A DNA stretch of 37,474 nt, from assembly GCA_011523635.1 (NCBI GenBank), contig WTGI01000008.1, forward strand, positions 1 to 37,474. The letters run 5' to 3'. The translations under genes and the position numbers were made by a program. Position 1 is the stretch's first letter. Every line of letters begins with the position of its first letter. The DNA is from Acidimicrobiia bacterium. GTDB lineage: Bacteria > Actinomycetota > Acidimicrobiia > Spongiisociales > Spongiisociaceae. Under the pieces are notes generated by a model. The model ran no database searches, was not told the DNA's origin, and saw only the letters and a list, made by a program, of their open reading frames with translations. Shown piece by piece: positions 22,412 to 30,028 of the stretch.

Positions 22412-22825
22412 ATGCCCGCGGCGATCCTGGTCGCTCTGAAGTTCATCTTCGTGGCCCTCGTCTACCTGCTGGTCTGGAGGGTGGCTACCGCGGTGGCCGA
22501 GCATGTCGGCGCCAAGCCCTGGAGGGTCCTGGGCGGTCCCGGTACCGGGCTGACCGTGGTGAGGAGCGATACCCAGAACGGGCTGGAATTCGATGTCCGC
22601 CGCCCGATCGTGCTGGGAAGCGGCAGCGAGGCGGACGTACGCATCGACGACGCCTACGCGTCGGACCTCCATGCCCGCCTGGATCCCGAGGAGGAATCGC
22701 TCACGCTGGAGGACCTGGGTAGCCCCAGCGGTACCTACGTGAACGGAAAGCGGGTGACCGCGGTGGTGGCGCTGAGCCGGGGTGACTCCATCCAGATCGG
22801 CAAGACCGTACTGGAGGTGAAGTGA
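22412..22825 (+). CDS. fhaB: FHA-domain protein with N-terminal membrane helix
   Basis: This 137-residue phosphothreonine-binding protein has an N-terminal transmembrane helix (about 4-24) and a C-terminal FHA domain (about 48-135). The FHA core includes VLGSGSEADVRIDD, SDLHARL and DLGSPSGTYVNGKRV, which bind pThr peptides. In mycobacteria the homologue FhaB/FipA links the kinases PknA/PknB to division proteins (established). It overlaps the phosphatase gene by 4 nt. The larger FhaA gene often next to it is absent here. Confidence 0.88.
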   Translation: MPAAILVALKFIFVALVYLLVWRVATAVAEHVGAKPWRVLGGPGTGLTVVRSDTQNGLEFDVRRPIVLGSGSEADVRIDDAYASDLHARLDPEEESLTLEDLGSPSGTYVNGKRVTAVVALSRGDSIQIGKTVLEVK

Positions 22826-23547
22826 GGTTCGTCTGGGCGTCCGGAACCGATACCGGCCGCAGACGTCCCAAGAACGAGGACTCGATCCATCCGGAGCATG
22901 ACGGCCGGACGTCCGGCGTGCTACTGGTGGCGGTGGCTGACGGCTTGGGGGGCCATCGCGGGGGTGACGTGGCCAGCAGCGTGGCCGTCAAGGAGGCGGT
23001 CAGCGCCGGCGGGACCCCCGAGGATCGGGTGCGGGCGGCCAACGAGGCCATCCTGGACGAAGTTCTCGAGCAACCCCAACTGGTCGGGATGGGGACCACG
23101 CTCACGGTCGCCGAACTGCGTCCCGACGGCGAGGTCACCGTGGCGCATGTGGGGGATAGCCGGGCCTACCGGTGGCATGCCGCCCGCTTCAAGCAACTCA
23201 CGGTTGACCACACCTTCGTCCAGGAGGAGGTCGATGCCGGACGGCTGGACCCGGCACAGGTTCACAGCCATCCCGAGCGGTCCGTCCTCACGAGGGCGCT
23301 GGGATTCGGTCACGGTCTGGAGGTCGACCTTGTGCGGCTGAAAGTCTCGGTGGGTGACCGCCTGCTGCTGTGCTCCGACGGTCTTACATCGATGGTCAGG
23401 GATGATCGGATCGCCGCCATCCTGGGGAGTGGGGCGCCATCGGAGGCGGTGTGGGAGCTGATCGAAGCGGCCAACCGGTCGGGAGGTCTGGACAACGTGT
23501 CCGTAATCGTGGTGGCGATCGCAGAGGACGAAGCGAGCGGGGATTGA
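22822..23547 (+). CDS. PP2C-type protein serine/threonine phosphatase
   Basis: This 241-residue metal-dependent phosphatase reverses kinase signalling in the division locus. PP2C motifs are visible: NEDS near the start, VAVADGLGGHRGGDVAS, VAHVGDSRAYRW, LLLCSDGLTSMV and DNVSVIVVA. The GTG at 22822 overlaps fhaB (GTGA). Mycobacterial PstP has a membrane helix and an external domain, about 510 residues; this protein ends after the catalytic domain and should be cytosolic. The partner kinase is encoded at 26250. Confidence 0.93.
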   Translation: MRFVWASGTDTGRRRPKNEDSIHPEHDGRTSGVLLVAVADGLGGHRGGDVASSVAVKEAVSAGGTPEDRVRAANEAILDEVLEQPQLVGMGTTLTVAELRPDGEVTVAHVGDSRAYRWHAARFKQLTVDHTFVQEEVDAGRLDPAQVHSHPERSVLTRALGFGHGLEVDLVRLKVSVGDRLLLCSDGLTSMVRDDRIAAILGSGAPSEAVWELIEAANRSGGLDNVSVIVVAIAEDEASGD

Positions 23548-23614: not shown

Positions 23615-24871
23615 ATGAGCCGTCCGGCGGAAATCGTATTCGTCTGCGCGTCAGGTGGCCTGGCCGCCTTCGGAGTCCTGCTCGTCAACATGGCCCGCGA
23701 GGAGGTCCGGGCCATGCCGGCACTGGCGGCGTTCCTCGTGCTGGCCGTGGCGTTCGGGTTGTTCCTCGTGGCGATCCGTGCGTGGGCGCCGGACGCCACC
23801 CCCCTCCTGATTCCCGCCGCTTCCATCCTGGCCGCGGTGGGCTTCGTCACCATCTATCGCTTGGACGAGAACCTGGCGAGCCTTCATGGCTGGTGGCTGC
23901 TGCTCAGCGCCACCATGTCCGCCCTCTGGCTCTACGCCGTCTCGGAGAAGGGTCTGGGCCATCGGGGCGGTGGATGGTGGCCTCTCCTGGCCCTCGCGGC
24001 CGGATTGGTCGCGGTCCCGTCCTTGGGCGCGGATGGTGGCACGATCTGGGTGGCGTGGAGGTCGGCTCCGGCGGTGGTTCTCAACCCCGGCGAGATCGTC
24101 AAGTTTGTGATGGTGGCCCTATTCGCCATCCTCCTGGCCGAGAGGCAGGCTTTTTTCTCCGCCGGAGGTCGGTACACGGCCCCGCTCCGCCCGGCCCGGG
24201 TCACGACGGTCTGGCAATCCATCCTGCTGCTGGGACTCGTCCTGGTCGGCGTCGCCGTTCGGGATTCCGCAACGGCCATCATCGTGGTGGGGATGTTCTG
24301 CGTGATGGCCTACATGGCCACCAACCGGTCCGCCTACCTGGTTGGCGGGTTCGGCGCCGGAGTCCTCTGGCTGGTTGCCGGTCCCTGGCTGTCGGAGGGT
24401 CTCCAGACCCGGATAACGGTATGGACGGATCCGTGGACCCAGCCGGAGGGTCCGGGTAACCGGCTCGCCGAGGGCCTGTTCGGGCTGGCGGCGGGCAGCC
24501 TTTCGGGTACCGGCTTCGGTCTTGGCGACCCCGACCTGATACCGGGGTCCACCACCAGCCTGGTGTTCGCGGCCCTGGGCGAGGAGATGGGCCTCGCAGG
24601 GACCGTGGTGGTGCTGGCCGCGTACGCCCTGATGGTGGTCACCGGGTTCGGAATCGCGCTGCGGGCGAGGGAGGTGTTCCACAAACTCCTCGCAGGCGGG
24701 CTGTCGCTGCTCCTTGGTGGACAGGCCGTGATGTCCGTGGCCGGGGTGGTGGGGCTCCTGCCTGGCACCGCCATGCCGATTCCTTTCCTGTCGTACGGGT
24801 TGTCCCTGACGATGGCCGGCTTCGTCATTCTCGCCGTTCTGGCCCGCGTGAGTCACGAGGAGCGGGTATGA
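23615..24871 (+). CDS. rodA: SEDS-family protein (RodA/FtsW-like) with altered active-site motif
   Basis: This is a polytopic membrane protein of 418 residues with about ten hydrophobic segments. Family features include LNPGEIVKFVMVALFA, RITVWTDPW, the GTGFGLGDPDLIP segment, ALGEEMGLAG and PIPFLSYG. Active SEDS glycosyltransferases carry HTD-F-I-F or NTD-F-I-F after the DLIP-like segment, with an essential Asp. Here the equivalent reads GSTTSLVFA, with Ser (residue 315, codon at 24557) in place of Asp. Enzyme activity is therefore doubtful. I use the ATG at 23615 with GGAAGG upstream; an ATG at 23585 is also in frame. It overlaps the transpeptidase-like gene by 4 nt. Confidence 0.88.
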   Translation: MSRPAEIVFVCASGGLAAFGVLLVNMAREEVRAMPALAAFLVLAVAFGLFLVAIRAWAPDATPLLIPAASILAAVGFVTIYRLDENLASLHGWWLLLSATMSALWLYAVSEKGLGHRGGGWWPLLALAAGLVAVPSLGADGGTIWVAWRSAPAVVLNPGEIVKFVMVALFAILLAERQAFFSAGGRYTAPLRPARVTTVWQSILLLGLVLVGVAVRDSATAIIVVGMFCVMAYMATNRSAYLVGGFGAGVLWLVAGPWLSEGLQTRITVWTDPWTQPEGPGNRLAEGLFGLAAGSLSGTGFGLGDPDLIPGSTTSLVFAALGEEMGLAGTVVVLAAYALMVVTGFGIALRAREVFHKLLAGGLSLLLGGQAVMSVAGVVGLLPGTAMPIPFLSYGLSLTMAGFVILAVLARVSHEERV

Positions 24872-25998
24872 ACGGGCCGATCCGCCGGGTGGTCCTGGTT
24901 CTCGGCGTCGTCTTCCTGGTTCTCGTGGTGGACCTCACCTACTGGCAGGCCATCGCCGCCGACCGGCTTCGCGAGAACCCGCGGAACCCGCGGGTGGAGC
25001 TGACCCGGTCGGGTCGGGAACGCGGCGAGATCCTCTCCGCGGACGCGGTGGTGCTGGCCAGATCCGTGCCCGATCCTCTCGATCCCGGCGCTTACCGGCG
25101 CGAGTACCTGTACGGGTCGGTATACGCGCACGTGGTCGGCTTCTCGTCGGCCCTGTTCGGGGACCGGGGTGTGGAAGCCGCCCACGCCTCGCTTCTCAGG
25201 TCGCGCCGCGACCTGACCACCTCGGGGATTATCAACGCGCTGCTCGGCGACGACCTGCGACCCCGATCGATCCAGCTCACGCTGTACCACGAACTCCAGG
25301 CGACCGCTGCCCGAGCCCTCGGCGATCGGCGGGGCGCGGTGGTGGCCCTCGATCCTGCCACCGGTCAGGTGCTGGCGATGGTCAGCTCGCCGTCGTTCAA
25401 TCCCAATTCCCTGGTCGGGACGAACGCCGCGGTGGTTTGGGACGCCCTGACCGAGAGCACCGACGGCCCCCTCGACAACCGCGCCATCGCAGGGTCATTG
25501 CCCGAACTGCTCACCTCTGAGGGAACGATCACTCTCGACGAGATGGATCCGCTTTCGGCGCTGGGGATCGCCTCGCGGGTGGCCGCGGCCGGCCAAGACG
25601 GGCTGATGATGCGCCCGTACCTAACCGCTGGGGTGTTCGACGCCGATTCCAGTCAGGTCTCGCGAACGGATCCGGAACCCATGGCCGATACCTTCGGCTA
25701 CGAAGCAGCCCTGTCGCTCTACGGAGAGAGCAGCCCGGTGGCGGTCGGCGGCGCCTCGCAGGATCGGCCGCCGGAGGCGGTCGGCAACTCCGGAGTCACC
25801 GAGACCAGTGCGGGCGAGCCGGCCGGGTGGTTCTTCGGCGTCTGGCCCGCCACCCGCCCCACCATCGTGGTGGCGGTGGTCGTGTATTCCGACGGGCCCG
25901 GCGGGGGCGGGCCGAGCAGAGCGGCGGCGGCCTCCGTCGGTCGAGCAGTGCTGGCCGCCTGGATCGAAATGATCCCCACCGGCGTCCCAGACGGGTAG
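24868..25998 (+). CDS. pbpA: Class B penicillin-binding-protein-like protein lacking the catalytic motifs
   Basis: This 376-residue protein has one N-terminal membrane helix (about 6-24), a pedestal-like region (about 40-125) and a shortened transpeptidase domain (about 150-370). GAVVALDPATGQVLAMVSSP and DNRAI match PbpA-type enzymes directly before the active site. The PPGSTFK (SxxK) segment and the following SxN region should come next but are missing, and the protein jumps to a late region (MMRPYL). The KTGTAE motif is replaced by GNSGVTE (about 305-311). The reading frame is clean. PbpA of mycobacteria has about 490 residues. It is most likely a non-catalytic partner of the SEDS protein, with which it overlaps. 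Confidence 0.85.
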   Translation: MNGPIRRVVLVLGVVFLVLVVDLTYWQAIAADRLRENPRNPRVELTRSGRERGEILSADAVVLARSVPDPLDPGAYRREYLYGSVYAHVVGFSSALFGDRGVEAAHASLLRSRRDLTTSGIINALLGDDLRPRSIQLTLYHELQATAARALGDRRGAVVALDPATGQVLAMVSSPSFNPNSLVGTNAAVVWDALTESTDGPLDNRAIAGSLPELLTSEGTITLDEMDPLSALGIASRVAAAGQDGLMMRPYLTAGVFDADSSQVSRTDPEPMADTFGYEAALSLYGESSPVAVGGASQDRPPEAVGNSGVTETSAGEPAGWFFGVWPATRPTIVVAVVVYSDGPGGGGPSRAAAASVGRAVLAAWIEMIPTGVPDG

Positions 25999-26138
25999 CT
26001 CCAAGTGGTCAGTGGTCAGCGAATGTTGTGACCCAGGATGACACGGACAATTTACCTCAAGGGCCACAGGGAACCTGCCTACCCCCAGATTGCCCCTGGC
26101 AACTGGCTACCGGCCACTGGCCCCTGGCCACTGACCAG
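25998..26138. repeat. Dispersed repeat, copy A
   Basis: This stretch of about 140 bp aligns with 29307-29465. Shared words include CCAAG-n-GGTC, GTGGTCAGTGG, TGACACG-n-ACAA, AAGGGCC and ACCGGCCACTGGCC. Its ends are inverted relatives of each other (AGTGGTCAGTGGTCAG at left, CTGGCCACTGACCAG at right), as in a small non-autonomous element or a folded RNA. It fills most of the space before the kinase gene. Confidence 0.7.
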
Positions 26139-26249
26139 ACCTCTCGACAAACAAACGCTAAGGGGCTCGCCCGTGGCAAACTACCTGGTATGAAAGTGGT
26201 CGGCCACCATCCGAGCCCCCATGTGCGCGGTCTAGTGGTGCATTCCTGA

Positions 26250-28367
26250 ATGGTTACCCCGAACTCGCTGGGCCGTTACGAATTGACCGCGCAGATCGCG
26301 CGGGGCGGCATGTCGGATGTGTTCGAGGCTCGGGATCGTCTCCTCGACCGCAAGGTGGCCGTCAAGATCCTGCACGACCGGTTTGCGGAGACGGATACCT
26401 TCGTGGCCCGATTCCGCAAGGAAGCCAGGGCGGTCGCCAACCTGAGCCATCCCAACGTCGTGTCGGTCTACGACTGGGGCGAGGAGGACGGCACCTACTT
26501 CATGGTCATGGAGCTGGTGAGGGGGCGGTCCCTGCGCGACATCATCCAGGCCGAGGGCAAGCTGCTGCCGCGTCGAGCAACCGAGATAGCAGCCGAGATC
26601 GCCAAGGCGCTTGACGCCGCTCACCGCAGCGGTGTCATCCACCGCGACATCAAGCCCGGCAACGTCCTCCTGACCACGGACGGCACCGTCAAGGTGACCG
26701 ACTTCGGCGTGGCCCGGGCCCGCAACGCCTCCGAAGGACTGACCAAGGTGGGATCGGTCATAGGAACGGCCACCTACTTCAGCCCCGAACAGGCCAGTGG
26801 CGACCCGGCCGACGAGCGGTCGGACATCTACAGCCTGGGAGTGGTGCTCTACGAGATGTTGGTGGGGCGTCCCCCCTTCAGAGGGGAGAGCGCGGTGTCG
26901 GTGGCGTACCAGCACGTCACCGCCGAAGTCGTTCCGCCGAGCCGGCTCAATACCGACGTGTCGCTAGAGCTCGAGAACGTGGTGATGCGGGCTCTCGACA
27001 AGGACCCTGATCGACGCTACGAGACGGCCGCCGACATCCACCATGACCTTCTCGTGCTGCTACAGGGCCGGTCTTCGCACAGCGGTCAGGCCCCGGTCGC
27101 TCCTCCCGCCCGCTCCCAAACCGCTCAGGACCTGCCGCCTCCCCCGCCCCGGGACGACGATGCCTACCGCCGTATGCGGGGCCAGCCCCGCCAGCCCTCG
27201 CAGCTTCCCTTCATCCTCACCGCTGTTCTCCTGGCGGCCGGAGTGGTGCTCGGCGCATACCTCCTGCTCAATAGCCTCTCGAACGATCCGGCGCCGTCGA
27301 CCACCGTGCCGGTCGTGACCATTGCTGTTCCCGACGTGACCGGCCAATCCGAGGAGGAGGCGCGCATCGTGCTCCAGGAGGCGGGATTCCTGGTCACGAC
27401 GAGCAGGGAGTCCAGCGAGGCTCCGGAGGACTCGGTGATCCGGACCGAGCCGGCGGCCGGAACGGTCGCCGAGGAGGAGTCACCGGTCAATGTGGTCGTC
27501 TCCGACGGGCCGGCCCTGCTGCAGATTCCCACTGTGGTCGGCTCTACCAGGGAGCGCGCCATCGGGCAGCTCCGGGGTCAGGGCTTCGCCTTCACGGAGC
27601 GTACCGCCCGCCACGACACGATAGGGGCGGGTTTGGTGATCAGCCAGGATCCGGCGGGCGAGGCCAGAGCCCCGGTCGGATCGGTGGTCGAACTGGTGAT
27701 CTCGGCCGGTCCGCAGCCCATCGAAATGCCCCGGGTGATCGGACTGAGCCGCGATCGAGCGGAGGGAATGCTCGAAGGCCTTGGTCTGGAAGTCTCGACA
27801 ACTCTGACTCGCAACAACGACGTACCGCCCGGGGTGGTGGCCCGCCAGGACCCTGCTCCCGGGGCGGACGTGAACCCCGGATGGAGCGTTCAGTTGGTGA
27901 TCTCCGAAGGTCCGGATTTGTTCGTACTCGAGGAACTGGCCGGCCAACCGGTTGCCGATGTGATCATCCTTCTCGGGGAGGCCGGCATGCAGGTCCAGGT
28001 CATCGAGGAGCCCAGCCCGAGCCACGAGGTGGGCGTGGTCATCCGCACCGATCCGCCGGGGGGGACGGAACTGCCGGTGGGCGACACGATCACCTTGTAC
28101 GAGTCCACGGCACCGGATCTGGTGGTGGTTCCCGACCTCACCGGTGCCACCCCTGAGGAGGCGGAAGCCACCCTGGCCGGGCTGGGTCTGATACTTGAGG
28201 TTGCAGCCTCCAGGGCTGCGGTCGATACGCCCGAGTTGGAAGGGAGGATCGCCCGCCAGGCTCCGGGTCCGGGCGAGGAGTTCTCGCCAGGCGAGACGGT
28301 GCTGGTGGTGCTCGGCGACTACACTGCCCCGGTGGTGGACTCCGAGACCGAGAGTTCGGAATCGTAG
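26250..28367 (+). CDS. pknB: PknB-like serine/threonine protein kinase with five PASTA domains
   Basis: This 705-residue membrane kinase senses cell-wall fragments and phosphorylates division and wall proteins. The kinase domain (about 9-270) is intact: VAVKIL (K39), HRDIKPGNVLL (D133), DFGVARA (D151). A single membrane helix follows at about 320-343. Five external PASTA repeats (about 354-705) should bind muropeptides or lipid II. The ATG at 26250 is immediately preceded by an in-frame stop, so no earlier start exists, yet no Shine-Dalgarno sequence is visible; translation may be leaderless. Unlike the SEDS and PBP-like neighbours, no key residue is missing. Confidence 0.95.
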   Translation: MVTPNSLGRYELTAQIARGGMSDVFEARDRLLDRKVAVKILHDRFAETDTFVARFRKEARAVANLSHPNVVSVYDWGEEDGTYFMVMELVRGRSLRDIIQAEGKLLPRRATEIAAEIAKALDAAHRSGVIHRDIKPGNVLLTTDGTVKVTDFGVARARNASEGLTKVGSVIGTATYFSPEQASGDPADERSDIYSLGVVLYEMLVGRPPFRGESAVSVAYQHVTAEVVPPSRLNTDVSLELENVVMRALDKDPDRRYETAADIHHDLLVLLQGRSSHSGQAPVAPPARSQTAQDLPPPPPRDDDAYRRMRGQPRQPSQLPFILTAVLLAAGVVLGAYLLLNSLSNDPAPSTTVPVVTIAVPDVTGQSEEEARIVLQEAGFLVTTSRESSEAPEDSVIRTEPAAGTVAEEESPVNVVVSDGPALLQIPTVVGSTRERAIGQLRGQGFAFTERTARHDTIGAGLVISQDPAGEARAPVGSVVELVISAGPQPIEMPRVIGLSRDRAEGMLEGLGLEVSTTLTRNNDVPPGVVARQDPAPGADVNPGWSVQLVISEGPDLFVLEELAGQPVADVIILLGEAGMQVQVIEEPSPSHEVGVVIRTDPPGGTELPVGDTITLYESTAPDLVVVPDLTGATPEEAEATLAGLGLILEVAASRAAVDTPELEGRIARQAPGPGEEFSPGETVLVVLGDYTAPVVDSETESSES

Positions 28368-28384
28368 ACGGATTGGGGGCTGCC

Positions 28385-29263
28385 GTGGCATCTGTCGAGG
28401 CCCGGAGCCAAGACGCTAAGGGGGCCGACGGACCGGCGGTGACGGTGCAGGACGCCGTGTTCCGCTACGGCTCCAAGACGGTCGTCGGGCGGTCCAGCGT
28501 CGACATCCCGGCCGGATCGATCACGGCGCTTATCGGCCCCAACGGCGCAGGCAAGTCGACCCTGCTCAATGCCTTTGCCGGACTGGTCCAGCCGGCGTCG
28601 GGCAGCGTCACGGTGGGGTCCAGGAACGGACGGACCTACCGCACTTCCTACGTGCTCCAGGAGACCAAGGTCAATCCTTCGCTACCGGTCACCGTCCGGG
28701 AGGTGGTCAGCATGGGCCGCTATGGGGGCCGCCGGCCGCTGCGCTTTCTTACCAAGGAGGATCGCCGGATGGTCGACGAGGCGATGGAGAGGACCAACAT
28801 CACCCACCTCGCCATGCGGCACCTCTCCCGGCTCTCGGGCGGGGAACGCCACCGGGTGCTACTGGCCCAAGGGCTGGCGCAGGACCACGACATCCTGCTG
28901 CTGGACGAGCCTGCCACCGGCCTCGATGTGGTGTCCATCCAGGCGGTCCGGGACACCATCTGCTCGGAGAACGAACACGGATGCACGGTCATCGTCACCA
29001 CTCACGACCTGACCGAGGCCTGGGATGCCCACTACGTGGTCCTCCTGGCAGGGCGCGTCGTTACCGCCGGGCCGCCCGCGGAGGTCCTGAGGGCGTCCCA
29101 CATGACGGCCGCCTACGGCTTGGGCCTGATGAACGTGGAGGGCACCCACCTGTTCCTCGATGATCCTCATCACGACGAGACGGACGGGCACCACTCCCAC
29201 GAACGATCCATCCACCTGGAGTCCGATCCGGTCGACCTTCACCACGACGAGCACAACCACTGA
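28385..29263 (+). CDS. Orphan ABC transporter ATPase (metal/chelate type) with His-rich tail
   Basis: This 292-residue ATPase of the iron-chelate/zinc family has Walker A GPNGAGKST, Q-loop YVLQETKV, signature LSGGERHR, Walker B ILLLDEPA and H-loop TTHD. After the usual end it carries about 35 residues rich in His and Asp (from LFLDDPHHDETDGHHSHE to HHDEHNH), likely a metal-binding tail. No permease or binding protein is adjacent. It begins 17 nt after the kinase stop and is probably co-transcribed. The GTG at 28385 is my start, with a G-run upstream; TTG at 28373 is the alternative. The substrate is inferred to be a transition metal. Confidence 0.87.
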   Translation: MASVEARSQDAKGADGPAVTVQDAVFRYGSKTVVGRSSVDIPAGSITALIGPNGAGKSTLLNAFAGLVQPASGSVTVGSRNGRTYRTSYVLQETKVNPSLPVTVREVVSMGRYGGRRPLRFLTKEDRRMVDEAMERTNITHLAMRHLSRLSGGERHRVLLAQGLAQDHDILLLDEPATGLDVVSIQAVRDTICSENEHGCTVIVTTHDLTEAWDAHYVVLLAGRVVTAGPPAEVLRASHMTAAYGLGLMNVEGTHLFLDDPHHDETDGHHSHERSIHLESDPVDLHHDEHNH

Positions 29264-29306: not shown

Positions 29307-29465
29307 AGTTCCAAGGGGTCTGTGGTCAGTGGTCAGTGAAGTGTTGCGGCGCGGGACTGACACGAACAACTCGACAGCCCTAAGGGCCGATGGGAACTTG
29401 ACTACCGCCGAGTCGCTCACTTGGCCGCTGGCGACCGGCCACTGGCCACTACAACTGGCAACTAG
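29307..29465. repeat. Dispersed repeat, copy B
   Basis: This is a second long copy of the element at 25998, starting TTAGTTCCAAGGGGTC and ending near ACAACTGGCAACTAGG. It is in the same orientation as copy A. Its right end supplies the stop codon of trpG (29462-29464). Together the copies bracket the kinase and orphan ATPase genes. Confidence 0.7.
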
Positions 29466-30028
29466 GACCGGCCGGTCAGGAAGTTGTCGAGTAGGGCCAT
29501 CCCCTCGTCGGTGAGCACGCTCTCCGGATGGAACTGCACGCCGTGGATGGGAAGCTCCCGGTGCCTGACTCCCTGGACGACATCGTCCTCACTCCAGGCG
29601 CACGGCTCGAGCACGTCGGGCAATTCGCTGGCCGCCAGCGAGTGGTATCTCGTAGCGACGAAGGGATTCCTCAGACCGGAGAAGACGTCCTTGCCGTCAT
29701 GGCGGATCGAGGAGGTCTTCCCGTGCATGACCTGGGGGGCGAGGTCGATGGCGCCGCCGAACGAGGTGACGATGGCCTCATGACCAAGGCATACGCCCAG
29801 GATGGGCACCATTCCGGCGAAGTGTTCGATGTACGACTCCGTATAGCCGGCGTTCTCGGGCCGTCCTGGTCCCGGTGAGATGACCAGCCGTTCCGGTTCG
29901 AACCGGGCGGCTGTGGGCGCGTCCATCTCGTCGTTGCGGACCACGGTCGGCTCGGCGCCGAGTTCGCCCAGATACTGGACCAGGTTGAAGGTGAAGCTGT
30001 CGTAGTTGTCCAGAACCAGCACCCGCAT
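29462..30028 (-). CDS. trpG: Glutamine amidotransferase, anthranilate/aminodeoxychorismate synthase component II
   Basis: This 188-residue class I amidotransferase provides ammonia from glutamine for anthranilate or 4-amino-4-deoxychorismate synthesis. MRVLVLDNYDSFTFNLVQYL and VISPGPGRPENAG are diagnostic. The catalytic Cys is in ILGVCLGHEAI and the His/Glu pair in GVQFHPES. No component I is nearby. A trpG/pabA gene beside pknB and crgA is a conserved actinobacterial arrangement (established in mycobacteria). It is divergent from crgA. The folate-versus-tryptophan role cannot be decided here. Confidence 0.93.
   Translation of the reverse strand: MRVLVLDNYDSFTFNLVQYLGELGAEPTVVRNDEMDAPTAARFEPERLVISPGPGRPENAGYTESYIEHFAGMVPILGVCLGHEAIVTSFGGAIDLAPQVMHGKTSSIRHDGKDVFSGLRNPFVATRYHSLAASELPDVLEPCAWSEDDVVQGVRHRELPIHGVQFHPESVLTDEGMALLDNFLTGRS

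Follow-up and report, generated by a model that had tools for sequence, protein, structure and literature searches.

The SEDS protein and the class B penicillin-binding protein (bPBP) encoded next to the PASTA kinase in this acidimicrobial genome have both lost their catalytic residues, a double loss that is well supported. The pair is shown to descend from the RodA-PbpA synthase encoded in the actinobacterial fhaB-pstP-rodA-pbpA-pknB operon, and we regard it, at a probability of about 0.55, as a conserved double pseudoenzyme that was kept as a non-catalytic membrane scaffold or sensor complex docking or localising PknB. Since the active sites are lost while the genes remain under selection, the two proteins probably act as scaffold or sensor and not as enzymes, and a role in PknB signalling would be plausible. 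Pairs of SEDS protein and PBP are essential for wall synthesis and serve as drug targets; whether they also have structural or signalling roles beyond catalysis is difficult to examine in model organisms, as a dead SEDS protein is toxic there.

The window, i.e., the whole stretch of 37,474 nucleotides that was analysed, is an entire contig of a 3.15-Mb draft genome with a completeness of 97%. The order FhaB, PstP, SEDS, PBP and PASTA kinase is that of the actinobacterial pknB operon, and the following features were assigned:

22412-22825, + strand: FhaB with FHA domain (NF049868 and PF00498 matches)
22822-23547, + strand: PstP-type PP2C phosphatase (profile matches)
23615-24871, + strand: SEDS-fold protein, putatively catalytically dead descendant of the PknB-locus RodA (PF01098, AF2 model, alignments)
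24557-24559, + strand: Ser codon where active proteins encode the catalytic Asp, E. coli RodA D262 (phmmer, 119-row alignment)
24868-25998, + strand: degenerate class B PBP of 376 aa, descendant of PbpA (PBP_dimer_2 and partial Transpeptidase matches)
24868-25257, + strand: membrane anchor and pedestal of the PBP, residues 1-130, the fully constrained part (dN/dS, identity)
25483-25551, + strand: junction left by the deletion of about 110 residues, which include the SxxK-SxN part of the transpeptidase domain (alignments)
25549-25995, + strand: C-terminal transpeptidase remnant, relaxed (dN/dS)
26250-28367, + strand: PknB-type kinase with five PASTA domains (NF033483 at 630 bits, PF03793 five times)

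The SEDS and PBP genes overlap by 4 nt (24868-24871), as described before, and wherever the locus is whole in the genomes of the order that were read, the gene order is retained with an overlap of 1 or 4 nt. The kinase motifs of PknB are intact (HRDIKPGN, DFG). A non-coding gap of 251 nt (25999-26249), which varies in length within genus g1 up to several hundred nt, separates the PBP and PknB genes in the window, unlike in some intact relatives, where the two abut or overlap. This gap contains a 14-nt inverted repeat (26006/26124), and the search for promoters and terminators in these 251 nt before pknB gave none beyond chance. An ABC transporter ATPase (28373-29263) lies between PknB and a convergent TrpG/PabA-like gene (29462-30028); a similar ATPase is found 3' of PknB in genomes of the clade that shares the double loss, and it is unmatched in the outgroup loci read. 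The number of PASTA domains was considered as a trait altered together with the loss and was rejected, as 5-6 in the clade versus 4-5 outside is not distinctive.

The preliminary description had pointed to the segment PGSTTSLVFAALGEE of the SEDS protein, in which a Ser takes the place of the essential Asp, and the case proved stronger than first claimed. The segment is present as described. In the phmmer comparison with solved structures the Ser falls into the column of E. coli RodA D262 (8TJ3) and is also aligned with the Asp of the TD(F) motif in FtsW and in Thermus thermophilus RodA, and the 119-row alignment places it concordantly. The residue is Ser315 if counted from ATG 23615 and Ser325 if counted from the upstream ATG 23585; the former is the likelier start codon, because the orthologues begin with (V/M)(S/T)R.AE.

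Apart from this residue, the protein is recognizably a member of its family. It matches PF01098 with 154 bits versus a cut-off of 26.4, and its AF2 model (mean pLDDT 67, pTM 0.73) matches FtsW/RodA structures at Z 24-30, with the O-antigen ligase WaaL following at 13, so that the RodA/FtsW multi-helix fold is predicted to be kept. Cavity residues were compared at columns that are at least 93% conserved in intact relatives. The clade keeps the equivalents of RodA E114 (12/13), K117 (10/13), W102 (12/13), D159, S340, G342, E270, and E271; in the numbering of the SEDS protein E170 (12/13), K173 (10/13; RodA K117), W155 (12/13), D227, S403-Y404-G405, and the fold glycines are kept, and K173 is Arg or Leu in the remaining 3/13. 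The equivalent of D262 is lost throughout the clade, and Q111 (to Asn), L160, and G343 (to Leu) are lost mainly in the genus. As some residues of the lipid cavity have changed (Q111 to Asn, G343 to Leu), lipid II binding by the SEDS protein may be gone.

The claim that the partner transpeptidase lacks its catalytic residues was confirmed and extended. SxxK, SxN, and KTG, which define a class B PBP of the PbpA type, are all absent in 13/13 clade genomes, and with 376 aa versus about 485-490 in intact relatives the protein has, according to the alignments, lost about 110 residues of its transpeptidase domain. The transpeptidase profile is matched only in pieces, while the PBP_dimer_2 pedestal (PF21922, 47.6 bits versus 27) is retained and the transmembrane (TM) segment is aligned. 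Penicillin binding is not expected, because the Ser that is acylated is absent. The structural model of the PBP is poor (pLDDT 52, pTM 0.44), and its best fold match at Z 14.2 is therefore weak evidence; the pedestal is assigned from sequence. We thus classify the two proteins as a SEDS protein by fold and a bPBP by anchor and pedestal, and putatively neither as a SEDS glycosyltransferase nor as a functional transpeptidase, because the features defining the latter two were tested and are not there.

The joint loss put forward in the preliminary description was followed across relatives in an order set of 138 genomes, in which the SEDS-PBP pair was read wherever a match gave a readable locus. 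In genera g1, g2, and g3 of family f1 the catalytic Asp of the large outer loop is lost in 13/13 genomes (Ser in 11, Gly and Arg in one each), and the same 13 genomes have lost all three PBP motifs. G014, which represents genus g4 of the same family, has the Asp and all PBP motifs intact. Including G014, all remaining SEDS rows of the order (105/105) have the Asp, and every readable PBP has the motifs; in a sample from elsewhere in the class the Asp is present in 40/40 genomes and SxxK and KTG in every readable PBP, and the PBP of G282 reads SCD for SCN. The two losses occur together inside the clade, and neither occurs in the relatives read outside it. In the PknB tree the loss clade forms one branch with 100/100 support and G014 as sister, which indicates one change, in the common ancestor of these three genera of family f1, rather than many changes; being one evolutionary event, the co-loss provides no independent replication. 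The variety of residues at the site (Ser, Gly, Arg) accords with a loss rather than with the gain of a different catalytic residue. Genus g51 (family f3; G112-G117) carries a strongly diverged SEDS-PBP pair in the PknB locus, with TSDW in place of TDF and a SEDS dN/dS of 0.24; it was considered as a second case of loss and was rejected, as the Asp and all PBP motifs are kept. The named relatives are Acidimicrobiia metagenome-assembled genomes (MAGs), which, judging by their isolate names, presumably come from marine sponges.

Selection on the pair was assessed with simple Nei-Gojobori estimates of dN/dS, for which few pairs were available in the intact genera. In comparisons within genus g1 the SEDS protein has a dN/dS of 0.15-0.21 and the PBP one of 0.17-0.32, close to the values for PknB (0.14-0.18) and PstP (0.16-0.37). 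The kinase domain of PknB has a dN/dS of 0.05. The regions of the two proteins differ. In the clade PBP dN/dS amounts to 0.10 in the TM segment and 0.07-0.08 in the pedestal, versus 0.04-0.09 for the pedestal in intact genera, so these parts are constrained as in the intact genera, whereas the transpeptidase remnant shows 0.28-0.37 versus 0.02-0.11. Protein identity follows the same pattern: it is 0.37 in the remnant within the clade versus 0.53 within intact genomes, and it is retained in anchor and pedestal. For the whole SEDS protein dN/dS is 0.19-0.27 versus 0.04-0.10 in intact genera, the fast-evolving g51 aside, and 0.29-0.35 in the second outer loop. Both reading frames are open in 13/13 genomes despite a protein divergence of about 50%, and neither broken frames nor a dN/dS near 1, the marks of a pseudogene, were found. 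In known pairs anchor and pedestal are the parts of the PBP that touch the SEDS partner. The estimates indicate that selection preserves these SEDS-contacting parts while the transpeptidase remnant and the SEDS protein are relaxed, and that the two genes are not decaying and are held by purifying selection, beside an intact PASTA kinase. The earlier suggestion that the pair was retained agrees with this.

Wall synthesis had been proposed to have moved to paralogues, and intact pairs of both kinds were found in the genome. It encodes two further SEDS proteins with TDFIF, one in the order murD-ftsW-murG and one adjoining PBP2 and MreB, as well as intact FtsI- and PBP2-type PBPs (SxxK/SxN/KTG), one class A PBP, and a full MurJ; the locus studied here does not hold the sole SEDS protein. 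According to profile searches three SEDS proteins are present in 13/13 clade genomes. Among the loci fetched, every clade genome yielded an FtsW with TDFIF, and a RodA was read in 6 to 7 of the other clade genomes. Presumably, the intact FtsW-FtsI and MreB-linked RodA-PBP2 pairs carry polymerisation and crosslinking. FhaA, the other FHA protein of the known operon, was not found by profile search (PF12401) in the window's genome. It is missing in 9/10 genomes of genus g1, the window's included, and in G011, gives only 41-44 bits in G009, G010, and G013 and 82 bits in G014, and is present in 39/44 relatives outside the family. Because of this loss or erosion, the clade locus appears reduced to FhaB, PstP, PknB, and the non-catalytic pair. 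For M. tuberculosis FhaA an action on the lipid II flippase MviN via its phosphorylated pseudokinase domain was proposed (PMC11898655).

The scaffold or sensor reading would work as follows. Both active sites were lost together in the ancestor of the three genera; afterwards purifying selection held the fold of the SEDS protein as well as anchor and pedestal of the PBP, while the remnant and the SEDS protein, including its second outer loop, relaxed. The two dead proteins would still associate as a membrane complex, which probably still holds lipid II and which would dock or localise PknB and its partners where the wall is growing. With a dedicated dead PBP at its side, the dead SEDS protein would not sequester a PBP on which the active pairs depend. 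FtsW D297A still localises and binds FtsI and lipid II, and it is dominant-negative (PMC8765783). In M. tuberculosis, lipid II is bound by the outer domain of PknB, and this guides where the kinase is located (PMC6428115); PknB also phosphorylates PbpA in this organism (PMC3989709). From the binding by FtsW D297A, the lipid II binding by PknB and the operon linkage, presentation of substrate to the kinase, as proposed at the outset, would be a reasonable guess. More tentatively, the pair may be a naturally evolved non-catalytic SEDS-bPBP receptor, i.e., the substrate-binding shell of a synthase reused as a sensor of lipid II or wall status that reports to PknB; in that case it would be the first double pseudoenzyme among SEDS-PBP pairs.

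Several other explanations have to be weighed against this. The pair could be the remains of a synthase for polar growth that no longer has a function and is decaying slowly, being retained only because loss is slow. The erosion of FhaA, which is missing in 10 of 13 genomes and weak in the other 3, could be a sign that the module as a whole is on its way out; most intact genera have a SEDS dN/dS lower by a factor of 2-5, and the third SEDS protein is lacking altogether in some members of the order (G028, G034, G060, and G102 gave two SEDS matches only, so that the third is apparently gone; G034 is a single-contig genome). We nevertheless consider a relic rather unlikely, as the frames are open throughout the clade and pedestal and TM segment of the PBP are under the constraint seen in intact relatives. 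FtsW variants without activity act as dominant negatives although they still bind partner and substrate (PMC8765783), and a dead SEDS protein or a truncated PBP might accordingly serve as a decoy or brake that dampens the active synthases by binding to them, to lipid II or to MreC/MreD; the retention of a dedicated partner speaks against competition for active PBPs and makes this unlikely.

An activity could also have survived in another form. The RodA of the pknB locus was formerly called a flippase (PMC3989709), and the largely kept TM bundle and K173 would suit lipid II transport by the SEDS protein with the PBP only stabilising it, but a full MurJ in the same genome and the replacement of K173 in 3/13 members render transport improbable. 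Similarly improbable is an enzyme in which another acid has taken over catalysis. The sole candidate is D315 (ATG 23585 numbering; 24527-24529), ten residues upstream of the lost Asp, where an acid stands in 11/13 clade members and in only 7% of intact ones; the search within the clade found no replacement acid common to all 13. As position 315 is Ser in G009 and Arg in G011, which has Arg at the catalytic site too, relocation of the catalytic acid to it is unlikely, and the losses extend to further cavity residues and to the active site of the PBP. Of the two refuting conditions set in the preliminary description, another acid at the catalytic site and the lack of any other SEDS protein, neither was borne out. 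Finally, the genomes are draft assemblies and the named ones MAGs, yet an artefact of assembly or gene calling is refuted by the identical state in 13 genomes, with the G011 locus on a 3-Mb contig; neither chance nor assembly error can account for a loss in 13/13 clade genomes when 105/105 rows of the order and 40/40 genomes of the class keep the Asp.

Evolution has separated functions here, as catalysis is gone while the pair and the adjoining kinase stay. This offers a natural test bed for roles of RodA-PbpA toward PknB beyond glycan making, and it cautions that a SEDS annotation alone is insufficient to infer polymerase activity. No earlier description of an inactive or pseudo SEDS or PBP pair was found in the literature searched, which was mostly open-access full text with few subscription papers and hardly any preprints, and the novelty of the double pseudoenzyme pair is therefore provisional. 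With the actinobacterial RodA-PbpA of M. tuberculosis and C. glutamicum the pair has in common the operon membership, the SEDS fold, and the PBP anchor with PBP_dimer_2 pedestal; it differs by the loss of the Asp and of the three transpeptidase motifs, the deletion of about 110 residues, and the missing FhaA in this genome. E. coli RodA-PBP2 (8TJ3, Z 25.1) and T. thermophilus RodA-PBP2 (6PL5, Z 24.3) share the SEDS fold and the SEDS-bPBP pairing, but these are active polymerase-crosslinkers with Asp and transpeptidase motifs. In the laboratory-made E. coli FtsW D297A and T. thermophilus RodA D255A (6BAS) the same Asp is removed and the fold is kept, whereas the SEDS protein of the present locus is naturally dead, a state that is fixed in a clade and extends to the partner PBP.
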